Positions 43,241 to 45,408 of a DNA stretch of 46,857 nucleotides are shown here, in pieces. The stretch's first letter is position 1. Every line of letters begins with the position of its first letter. The DNA is taken from the NCBI GenBank assembly GCA_005880915.1, contig VBIW01000054.1, positions 1 through 46,857 on the forward strand, read 5' to 3'. The translations under genes and the position numbers were made by a program. The stretch comes from Chloroflexota bacterium (lineage in GTDB: Bacteria; Chloroflexota; Dormibacteria; Dormibacterales; Dormibacteraceae). The notes beneath the pieces were generated by a model. That model searched no databases. It worked only from the letters and a program-made list of their open reading frames with translations, and was not told the DNA's origin.

Positions 43241-43426
43241 GTGAGGGTTTTCACGGCGGTCAATCTGTCTCTCTGGGTAGTGCTCTTCGTCGGGTGGATC
43301 GGCTACTCCACGCTCGTTGGGTTTGGCGACCCCGTCAGCTCGCGGGTGATGCTGATCCTTGGCCTCACGGCGGTCCTCTTGCTGTTCCTTGGTTTCCTGC
43401 GCCTGCGGAGGAGACTGCGCACCTAG
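43241..43426 (+). CDS. Small two-TM membrane protein
   Basis: 61 aa, GTG with GAAGG 4 nt upstream. Two hydrophobic helices, about 7-27 and 36-54, with an Arg-rich C-terminus (R-L-R-R-R-L-R-T) indicating a cytoplasmic tail. Unknown function. It opens the operon with the YndJ-like, DCC and YwaF-like genes; the gap to the next start is short or absent. Confidence 0.55.
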   Translation: MRVFTAVNLSLWVVLFVGWIGYSTLVGFGDPVSSRVMLILGLTAVLLLFLGFLRLRRRLRT

Positions 43427-43442
43427 GCGCTACAGTGTCCGC

Positions 43443-44315
43443 ATAACGGCCCAACCCTTTCCGATCCTGGTCGGACCGCTGAGCCTCGTCGACCTGCTCC
43501 TCCTGCTCGCGCCGGTCGGCGTCGCGCCGCTCGGGCTTCGCCTCGTTCTCGTCTCCGGCCAGTCGGCCCCACGTCTGCTGCGCCTCGCCCGAGTGCTTCA
43601 GCCCGCCGGCGCAGTGGCGGCCATCCTGTCCTTCTTGCCGCGCACCGGCCTGGCGGCCGCGCTTCTCGCGGCGGGTTGGTTCGCGGTTTGCGCGGTCGCG
43701 GGTCTCGCCGGACTGGCCGAGCTCATCGAGTCGCGCTCGTTCTGGCCCGCCCACCTGCTGTCCGCCGCTGCGCTCGGCTTTCTGACCGTGGCCGGGGCAT
43801 GGTTCGTCGCTTACCGGGCGGGCATCAGCCTCGGCTACAGCACTCCGATCGTCGAGCTCACCGCAGTGCACTTTCACTACGCGGGGTTTGCGGCGACCCT
43901 GATGTCCGCTTTGACTCTTGCGGCCCTTCGCCAGCGTTCGATCAGGGTGCAACGCACGAGTGCCGCGGCTGGATTGCTCGTCGTCGCCGGTACGCCCATT
44001 ACCGCGACAGGGATCGCCATCGGGACCGCCGCTCTGACCGTGATCGGACCGGTGCTGCTGGCAGCTGGTATTTTGACCACCGCGGCCCTCACGCTGCTGT
44101 TCATCGCTCCCGCCCGGCGCGCTCGCGCCGGGCGCGCGCTGCTCACGATTTCGGCGGTTGTGGTGGTTGTACCGATGCTCCTAGGTGTCGACTACGCGGC
44201 GGCCCGTGTGCTCCCCATCCCGGCGCTCGACCTGCGGACGATGGCCATCGTTCACGGCGACCTCAACGCGGTCTTCTATGTCCTTTTCGGTCTCGCAGGC
44301 TGGTCGATGGCGTGA
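43443..44315 (+). CDS. YndJ-like polytopic membrane protein, start uncertain
   Basis: About 290 aa if it starts near 43443. Eight or so hydrophobic helices. The conserved YndJ patterns are visible: V-E-L-T-A-V-H-F-H-Y-A-G-F-A, and M-A-I-V-H-G-D-L-N-A-V-F-Y near the end. The start is unclear: in frame there is only a TTG at 43359 inside the previous gene, or a non-standard ATA at 43443. TACAGT stands 6 nt before the ATA, which is the leaderless spacing seen elsewhere in this window. It overlaps the DCC gene by 4 bp. Transport function is suspected for the family but unproven. Confidence 0.75.
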   Translation: MTAQPFPILVGPLSLVDLLLLLAPVGVAPLGLRLVLVSGQSAPRLLRLARVLQPAGAVAAILSFLPRTGLAAALLAAGWFAVCAVAGLAGLAELIESRSFWPAHLLSAAALGFLTVAGAWFVAYRAGISLGYSTPIVELTAVHFHYAGFAATLMSALTLAALRQRSIRVQRTSAAAGLLVVAGTPITATGIAIGTAALTVIGPVLLAAGILTTAALTLLFIAPARRARAGRALLTISAVVVVVPMLLGVDYAAARVLPIPALDLRTMAIVHGDLNAVFYVLFGLAGWSMA

Positions 44316-44710
44316 GCGGGCCACCGCTGGTACTCCTGTTCGACGGCACTTGAGGCGTTTGAACAAGGTTGGCGCGCTGGGCTCTCCGGCGCGACCGGGC
44401 CGGCCGTGTGCTGGTCATCGCGAACCAGAAGCCGGGCGTCCTCGACCTCTACGCGATCACGCGCGACGAAGCGGACCGCGCGGCTTGGACTGTCGATGGC
44501 GCTGGGAATCGGCTCGAGGGCGCCGCGGCGATCAACCGCGTGCTGGCTGAGCTGGGCGGCTTCTGGTCGTCGCTCGCGGCCGCGTACCGACTGCCTCCGG
44601 TAGCCGCGATCGAGGAGGCCCTCTACAGGTGGTTCGCTCCGCGCCGCTCACGATTCCATCGCCTGGGCGTCAGGCCGGAGTGCGATGAACCCGGCTCGGA
44701 GTGCGGGTGA
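44312..44710 (+). CDS. DCC-family (DUF393) thiol-disulfide oxidoreductase, putative selenoprotein with UxxU
   Basis: 132 aa including two TGA codons at 44351 and 44360. Read through, the protein begins V-S-G-P-P-L-V-L-L-F-D-G-T, then TGA-G-V-TGA, then T-R-L-A-R-W-A-L-R-R-D-R-A-G. DCC proteins have D-G-x-C-x-x-C at exactly this place, so both catalytic cysteines are replaced by UGA. The rest of the frame is intact and family-like: A-I-T-R-D-E-A, G-A-A-A-I-N-R-V-L-A, A-L-Y-R-W-F-A. Both ends have 4-bp GTGA overlaps (YndJ stop, YwaF start), showing a functional translation unit. A downstream hairpin fits a bacterial SECIS. If a conventional annotation starts at the TTG at 44369 the active site is lost. 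Alternatives: pseudogene with two nonsense mutations exactly at both Cys codons, which is much less likely. No selenocysteine machinery is in the window. Confidence 0.8.
44367..44396 (+). promoter_or_regulatory. SECIS-like hairpin after the two UGA codons
   Basis: Lower stem GGT (44367-44369) with ACC (44394-44396); a 3-nt bulge TGG whose first base is U; upper stem CGCGCTGG (44373-44380) with CCGGCGCG (44386-44393), all 8 positions paired including one U-G; apical loop GCUCU, starting with G. The loop begins 18 nt after the second UGA and 27 nt after the first, inside the range known for bacterial SECIS elements. Confidence 0.65.
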
Positions 44711-45408
44711 GCAACCTGCTGGCGGCCGAGCATGTCGCAGCGCTCTTTGTGATCGCCATAGCCACCGTGGGTCTCGTCGTTGCCGCCCGCAAGCGACCGG
44801 GCAGTTGGCTCAAGGTGCTGGCCTCCGTCCTGGTGGTGGACGAGGTCAGCTGGTGGGTCTACCTGCTGTTCGGCGGCGAGCCGGGCAGCCAGCTAGCGCA
44901 GTCGCTCCCGCTTCAGCTGTGTGACGTGGCCATCTTCGTCACAGCCGCCGCGTTGTGGACGCGGAACCGACTCGCGGTCGAAGTGAGCTATTTCTGGGGC
45001 CTGGCGGGCACGATTCAAGCTCTGTTCACGCCCGACGTGCCGCAGCATTTCCCGAGCTACCCGTATTTCCAGTACTACATCGCCCATGGCGGCGTGGTCG
45101 CCGCGGCGCTGATCCTGGTGGTGGGCATGCGCCTGCATCCACGCTCGTGGGCGGTGGTCAGGGTGGCCGGGCTGACGATCGCCTACGCGGCGCTCGTCGG
45201 AATCGCCGATGCGGTGACAGGCGCGAACTACCTGTACCTGCGCAGCAAGCCGCCGAGCCCCACCCTGCTGGACGTGCTCGGGCCGTGGCCCGTCTACATC
45301 TTTTCGGCGACCCTTATCGCGTTTGTGCTGTTCGCCATCCTGGACGCGCCATTCAGGCTGCGGCGCGCTCTGAGCTCAGGTCAGCGGGGTGCCGAAGCGC
45401 TCCGCTGA
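44707..45408 (+). CDS. YwaF/TIGR02206-type membrane protein
   Basis: 233 aa from the GTG at 44707 (4-bp overlap with the DCC stop); a GTG two codons earlier is possible. Six or seven hydrophobic helices. Characteristic motifs L-P-L-Q-L-C-D-V-A, W-G-L-A-G-T-I-Q-A-L-F-T-P-D, and Y-P-Y-F-Q-Y-Y-I-A-H-G-G. The role of the family is unknown. Its conserved Cys and His in the membrane and its place after a thioredoxin-like DCC protein are suggestive of a redox partnership. Confidence 0.88.
   Translation: MSNLLAAEHVAALFVIAIATVGLVVAARKRPGSWLKVLASVLVVDEVSWWVYLLFGGEPGSQLAQSLPLQLCDVAIFVTAAALWTRNRLAVEVSYFWGLAGTIQALFTPDVPQHFPSYPYFQYYIAHGGVVAAALILVVGMRLHPRSWAVVRVAGLTIAYAALVGIADAVTGANYLYLRSKPPSPTLLDVLGPWPVYIFSATLIAFVLFAILDAPFRLRRALSSGQRGAEALR

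Follow-up and report, generated by a model that had tools for sequence, protein, structure and literature searches.

How could a gene in which both catalytic cysteine codons are TGA still yield a complete redox protein? The question is raised by a locus in a 46,857-nucleotide stretch of DNA (hereafter the window; contig VBIW01000054.1 of assembly GCA_005880915.1) from a Chloroflexota bacterium, presumably a soil bacterium. An initial annotation, made from the sequence alone, took this gene for a DCC/DUF393 protein with selenocysteine (Sec) at both motif positions. Here, we examine its reading frame, its orthologues, the Sec machinery of its genome and the RNA downstream of the two codons.

Reading frame, product and neighbouring genes

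The features discussed below are all on the forward (+) strand of the window:

43359..44315, +, upstream YndJ-like protein (PF14158), overlapping the DCC start
44312..44710, +, DCC/DUF393 (PF04134) gene, predicted UxxU selenoprotein of 132 residues, GTG start and TGA stop (translation, Pfam, orthologue alignment)
44348..44413, +, zone of frozen synonymous choice, 14/18 testable codons, -1 to +20 from the first TGA
44351..44353, +, first motif TGA, residue 14, predicted Sec (TGA in 25/39 orthologue rows)
44360..44362, +, second motif TGA, residue 17, predicted Sec (TGA in 26/39 orthologue rows)
44369..44710, +, short open reading frame (ORF) from a TTG, without the active site, as reported by standard gene calling
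44373..44393, +, HP1, candidate SECIS hairpin, CGCGCTGG-gctct-CCGGCGCG
44398..44416, +, HP2, second hairpin, GGCCGGC-cgtgt-GCTGGTC
44701..45408, +, downstream TMEM164-like protein (PF14808, TIGR02206)

Translation from the GTG at 44312 gives VSGPPLVLLFDGT-TGA-GV-TGA-TRLARW... and runs to a TGA stop at 44708-44710, with two internal stops only, both TGA, which confirms the claimed frame at 44312-44710 with TGA at both motif cysteines. With TGA read as a residue, the product matches the DCC1-like profile PF04134 at 65.7 bits (cut-off 27.8), residues 8-116 covering profile positions 1-111 of 113, and its identity as a DCC/DUF393 protein is thereby secured. It thus resembles the DCC/DUF393/DCC1-like thiol-disulfide oxidoreductases in domain, in nearly full profile coverage and in the D-G-x-C-x-x-C site, but differs from them in that both motif cysteines are TGA and a predicted RNA hairpin follows within the gene. 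The motif, D-G-T-U-G-V-U, keeps the aspartate and the spacing of DxxCxxC, TGA replacing both cysteines, and the UxxU spacing of the two Sec is one of codons only. At E 0.1 the protein had no NCBIfam match, the window had no Rfam match at gathering thresholds, and ARAGORN found no tRNA in it.

GTGA overlaps join the gene to both neighbours, as had been described: 44315 is the last base of the YndJ-like ORF, and the TMEM164-like frame, whose listed ORF opens at the GTG at 44701, contains a GTG at 44707. TGA terminates both the DCC gene itself and the overlapping YndJ-like ORF, in agreement with the earlier view that it is a true stop here. Since the DCC stop is TGA, this codon carries two meanings within a single message, which is what Sec decoding predicts.

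Operon context was considered as a clue to function and rejected, and we claim no partner. In tblastn searches of the flanks (about 1.5 kb in most loci), the YndJ-like and TMEM164-like neighbours were found in the window's genus only, and the YndJ-like gene adjoins DCC in just part of that genus. Ten nearby genes at six loci of other genera are mutually unrelated, encoding beta-galactosidase, amylase, HD-domain, isocitrate lyase family and amidase proteins, one unmatched product, and PLD, histidine kinase, aminotransferase and PfkB proteins.

Standard gene calling was predicted to start at the TTG at 44369, and it does: the listed identical protein, P0002, is the 113-residue form. The same holds more widely. 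A protein search returned 444 homologues, and among the best 120 of these the annotated start lies inside or past the motif in 117; the remaining three (P0021, P0078 and P0094) start upstream and contain DG-x-C-x-x-C. Seven of the 117 start inside the motif, at the residue just before the second cysteine, as expected of UxxC forms. From their truncated starts we infer that these 117 shortened homologues, among the best 120 of 444, are Sec forms. Because gene finders start DCC past the TGAs, the protein has likely been overlooked.

Motif states across the phylum

DCC homologues were found in 53 of 151 related genomes searched, and many of the matches hold one to three TGA codons, some of which are end stops. 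The class comprises 110 genomes, 46 with a DCC match. Of 400 genomes sampled from the phylum, 121 had a DCC match in a profile search, which added UxxU forms in four families (f41, f83, f52 and f28) and a UxxC form in another (f42). Among ten named loci, eight belong to Chloroflexi, Dormiibacterota or Dormibacteraeota, and the two distant ones (32-33% identity) to other taxa.

In 39 distinct Chloroflexota orthologue rows, four motif states occur: UxxU in 20, UxxC in 5, CxxU in 6 and CxxC in 8 (UU, UC, CU and CC below). Alignment with these homologues places the TGAs on the motif cysteine positions, and both TGAs stand at the same codons in 19 genomes besides the window's, a recurrence beyond chance, although the rows are related and such counts overstate independence. 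As independent genomes share the same TGAs, a read error at these codons is very unlikely. Random stops, which would have spoken for decay in relatives, are absent: all 31 Sec rows read from the motif to the gene end without another stop. UxxU, for which a check of close relatives had been proposed, is present there and in distant ones too: L079 (genome G397; DGAUGFU) and L080 (G195; DGAUAFU), from other families of the phylum, are very divergent DCC proteins with UxxU, each with a perfect hairpin 17 nt past the second TGA. A third TGA in L022 and L030 was considered as a third Sec and rejected; the bases that follow it match the start of the TMEM164-like gene, and from this match we take it to be the gene's true stop, displaced upstream.

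With both motif columns masked, the best tree requires 8 changes among the four states and 6 between Sec and Cys; these counts are rough, 15 of the 36 inner branches being open and the starred ones on their own forcing fewer changes. One genome (G021) holds two DCC paralogues, one UxxU (L058) and one CxxC (L036). Several loci stand outside the 39-row counts, namely L061 and L062 (CxxU; G018 and G024), L063 (a UxxU fragment at a contig end, G004) and L047 (CxxC, G022). L056, L057 and L082-L085 (CxxC where read) and many distant matches of the phylum search stand outside the hairpin counts, and L048-L053 were dropped as repeats of counted genomes, with L054 and L055 representing G272 and G293.

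Selenocysteine machinery

The initial annotation had asked for tRNA-Sec, selA, selB and selD, and all four are in the same genome, a 4.13 Mb bin of 228 contigs (96% complete, 8.6% contaminated). The tRNA-Sec lies at C160:74379-74474 (72.4 bits; called SeC with anticodon tca by ARAGORN), selA (497 bits) adjoins selB (334 bits) on contig C48, and selD (L068, G000:C220:17862-18773; 337.5 bits) itself has one in-frame TGA in the context HGAG-U-ACKLSP, so that SelD is likely a selenoprotein too. Two formate-dehydrogenase-alpha-like regions, L095 (G000:C32:91264-93126) and L096 (G000:C31:35005-35775), also have an in-frame TGA each (NRT-U-HAPSVAGL and ARV-U-HGPTVVSL); they score 636 and 185 bits and do not reach the curated cut-off of 666. 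The selD and formate dehydrogenase TGAs fall at what we take to be the usual Sec/Cys sites of these proteins.

Genome G012, from the same genus, matches the selAB operon and tRNA-Sec region at 91% identity and the window's DCC region at 87%. Bin contamination is thus an unlikely source, and by this comparison the machinery genes very likely belong to the lineage of the DCC host rather than to a contaminant.

Across the orthologue set, SelB was found in 25 of 31 Sec genomes and SelB or tRNA-Sec in 29 of 31, four of the six genomes without a SelB match having tRNA-Sec. The other two are incomplete bins: G009, in which neither was found, and G397, where the search was for SelB alone and found none. 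At the thresholds used, neither SelB nor tRNA-Sec was found in seven genomes of genus g29 whose DCC match has no internal stop. SelB is present in some CxxC genomes (for example G011, G019 and G033), as expected where Sec serves elsewhere.

Selection and frozen synonymous sites

Purifying selection acts on both sides of the TGAs, with dN/dS of 0.19-0.36 downstream (window versus six relatives) and 0.09-0.25 upstream in five computable pairs, over only 12 codons. Around the motif, constraint extends to synonymous choice. Across 20 UU and UC rows, codon usage predicts more variety than is seen at 14 of the 18 testable codons (p 0.02 or less), among them ACT before the first TGA (18/19), GCC (19/19), GGC (20/20), CGT (20/20), GTG (20/20) and CTG (17/17); codons +4, +5, +10 and +14 are free, and CCGGCCGTGTG is invariant in 20/20 rows. 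From +21 to +40, a single codon of 20 reaches the same uniformity, and it is this contrast within the gene that constitutes the evidence, not the p-values, the rows being related.

A candidate SECIS hairpin and a second hairpin

The frozen zone covers HP1, whose loop in the window starts 18 nt past the second TGA and 27 nt past the first. We scored HP1 as present where a stem of at least 6 bp closes a loop of 3-7 nt with G in its first two positions and the loop starts 16-18 nt past the second motif codon, this definition having been set after the rows were seen. By this measure, the window and 26 of 31 Sec rows (UU 17/20, UC 3/5, CU 6/6) have a predicted SECIS-like stem-loop shortly past the TGAs, compared with 1 of 8 CC rows. 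Synonymous randomisation gives expectations of 4.3 for UU, 1.3 for UC, 1.2 for CU and 0.65 for CC, or about 6.8 for the Sec rows. Fisher's test of 26/31 against 1/8 returns p = 0.0004, a guide only because the rows are related. Hairpin presence at a set distance is the sharper test, as energy z-scores for the HP1 window against synonymous randomisation are modest: UU -1.65 (17 rows), UC -1.79 (4), CU -0.89 (6) and CC -0.43 (7). HP1 is missing or weak at its place in five of the 31 Sec rows (L027, L029, L038, L040 and L081).

The HP1 stem varies among lineages while pairing is retained, as in CGTGCGCT-ggattcg-GGCGCACG (L055), GTGCGCT-ggctgag-AGCGCGC (L058), CCGCCTG-ggt-CAGGCGG (L079) and GTCGTCTG-ggt-CAGGCGAC (L080). 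The six CxxU rows share GCGCTG-ggtc-CAGCGC, 17 nt from their sole UGA, and three of five UxxC rows (L023, L033 and L034) have HP1 in place, 27 nt from the UGA, though their second codon is TGC. L035 (G011), the sole CxxC row with HP1, comes from the window's genus, and four codons directly downstream are lost; its sequence suggests a recent switch from Sec to Cys that left a relic hairpin. Similar relic hairpins appear in a figure legend of PMC1794560.

HP2 follows HP1, and its loop is CGTGT (CGGGT in L078). Of the 25 rows whose first motif codon is TGA, 22 have the loop motif in place; none of the 14 other rows has it. This distribution suggests a role tied to the first UGA, the rows with a first TGA also being related. 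Energy z-scores for the HP2 window are again modest (UU -1.64, UC -2.26, CU +0.73, CC -0.82).

Consensus folding of a 20-row alignment recovers HP1 and HP2, with 90.8% of cells paired. Covariation in these 20 rows gave no signal above shuffles: close rows are too uniform, and in distant ones the stem is displaced by 1-2 nt, which leaves compensation visible solely by comparing lineages. When the full 93 nt are folded as an ensemble, other folds are often favoured, and in many rows neither HP1 nor HP2 dominates. The minimum-energy folds of some rows contain a long alternative hairpin, which was rejected as its pairing fails by eye in others.

Bacterial SECIS elements are described in the 2022 review PMC9312934 as stem-loops immediately 3' of the UGA, and figure legends of PMC1794560 and PMC2398784 mark a conserved G in the loop. 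HP1 is likewise an in-frame stem-loop; its loop lies 16-18 nt past the second UGA and has G in the first two positions. It differs from these elements in that one hairpin apparently serves two UGAs 9 nt apart, with HP2 linked to the first. The hairpin, the four motif states and the phylum-wide spread go beyond what the initial annotation had described.

Alternative explanations

Decay of the gene by nonsense mutations at two cysteine codons would account for two in-frame stops, and the earlier doubt about this reading was well placed. The same two TGA codons in 20 genomes of the 39 rows have already refuted it; purifying selection on either side of the TGAs, frozen synonymous sites and the intact frame from motif to gene end in all 31 Sec rows tell the same way, and we give decay practically no credence. 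That TGA encodes an ordinary residue (cysteine or tryptophan) through a changed code or a suppressor tRNA would fit the cysteine that relatives have at these sites, yet TGA really terminates the DCC gene and the YndJ-like ORF, tRNA-Sec, SelA, SelB and SelD are all encoded, and the in-frame TGAs observed fall at the DCC motif and at the usual Sec/Cys sites of SelD and formate dehydrogenase. This reading is very improbable.

Hardly more credible than decay is the proposal that translation really begins at the TTG at 44369 and yields a short product lacking the motif, the upstream part being a leader only. Listed gene calls do begin there or nearby, but the DCC profile begins at residue 8, the 12 codons ahead of the first TGA are under purifying selection, relatives read an L-x-x-FDGT-like sequence upstream of the motif, and the listed cysteine homologues P0021, P0078 and P0094 start upstream with the motif included; moreover, a thioredoxin-like fold deprived of its first strand and active site would be unusual. 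Finally, one Sec might be inserted efficiently and the other UGA used poorly, leaving a mostly truncated product and making the gene in part a selenium sensor for the downstream gene through translational coupling. The GTGA overlaps that couple the genes and the HP1 retained in the UC rows L023, L033 and L034 despite a TGC second codon are compatible with such a sensor, which we nevertheless think unlikely: the TMEM164-like gene was found in the window's genus only, whereas UxxU occurs in several families of the phylum.

The reading we prefer is that the DCC gene very probably encodes a UxxU selenoprotein, likely made by its own genome's SelA/SelB/SelD/tRNA-Sec system. The proposal of Sec at both sites is strongly supported, as an interpretation, by the recurrence of the TGAs and by the Sec machinery genes.

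Predicted structure and proposed mechanism

In an AlphaFold2 model with Sec given as Cys (mean pLDDT 84.7, pTM 0.79), a strand at residues 6-10 precedes a helix at 15-27 and a strand at 33-37, residues 14 and 17 lying at the start of helix 1; as modelled, the motif placement is thioredoxin-like. Foldseek found no match in the PDB at E <= 0.001, and its listed rows, at E of 0.1 or more, come mainly from thioredoxin-fold or GST chains. One weak hit in a profile search of PDB sequences, to a photosystem I subunit (E 0.0027), was taken as chance.

We propose that SelB bound to HP1 would deliver Sec-tRNA to both UGAs, the HP1 loop lying 16-18 nt past the second and hence 25-27 nt past the first, while the TGA at the gene end would terminate translation. 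HP2 may assist the first UGA in lineages that possess it. A single hairpin for both UGAs is a hypothesis into which the single-Sec relatives fit, each matching half of the mechanism: CxxU at 17 nt and UxxC at 27 nt. At the start of helix 1, the protein would then alternate between diselenol and diselenide forms, the diselenide bond being suggested by the UxxU spacing. DCC may act as a thiol-disulfide-type oxidoreductase; compared with a CxxC form, it would reduce substrates of disulfide or peroxide type more rapidly and be less prone to irreversible oxidation. A eukaryotic protein, SelL, reportedly has a UxxU motif with a diselenide bond (2007 study). UxxU is common to both, but DCC is bacterial and its predicted hairpin lies inside the reading frame.

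Taken as a whole, the fuller picture is one towards which we lean with some reserve. DCC would be a new Chloroflexota selenoprotein family with a diselenide UxxU site, in which one in-gene SECIS serves two UGAs nine nucleotides apart and HP2, with its near-invariant CGUGU loop, supports the first UGA; the UU, UC, CU and CC orthologues, with hairpins that track the UGAs, would form a natural mutant series.

Relation to known selenoproteins and significance

The main text of a 2026 review (PMC13188914) counts 119 selenoprotein families or subfamilies, of which those with two Sec are a small subset. It describes UxxU in Prx-like, metal-binding (putative mercuric reductase) and FmdB-like proteins, and passages of PMC2398784 report a GOS UxxU selenoprotein. 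DCC shares with the Prx-like, mercuric-reductase-like and FmdB-like forms two Sec two residues apart in a redox motif, but it is another protein family, and its UU, UC, CU and CC states occur within one orthologue set. The main text of PMC13188914 contains none of the terms DCC, DUF393, PF04134, COG3011 or DCC1, and that of PMC9312934 neither DCC nor YuxK. In the open-licence literature, we found no paper naming DCC (DUF393, PF04134, YuxK) as a selenoprotein and, among papers on DUF393, no title on selenium; subscription journals may differ. We class DCC as a new family of selenoproteins built on a known domain and bearing a rare double-Sec motif.

If this is correct, the bacterial selenoproteome gains a widespread, apparently undescribed family, hidden because gene callers start past the active site, and many truncated DCC proteins in public databases would have their annotation corrected. 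How Sec is inserted twice at codons nine nucleotides apart is a decoding problem that, like the benefit of a diselenide, would become directly testable with the four orthologue states (UU, UC, CU and CC), whose hairpins lie at distances that can be measured.
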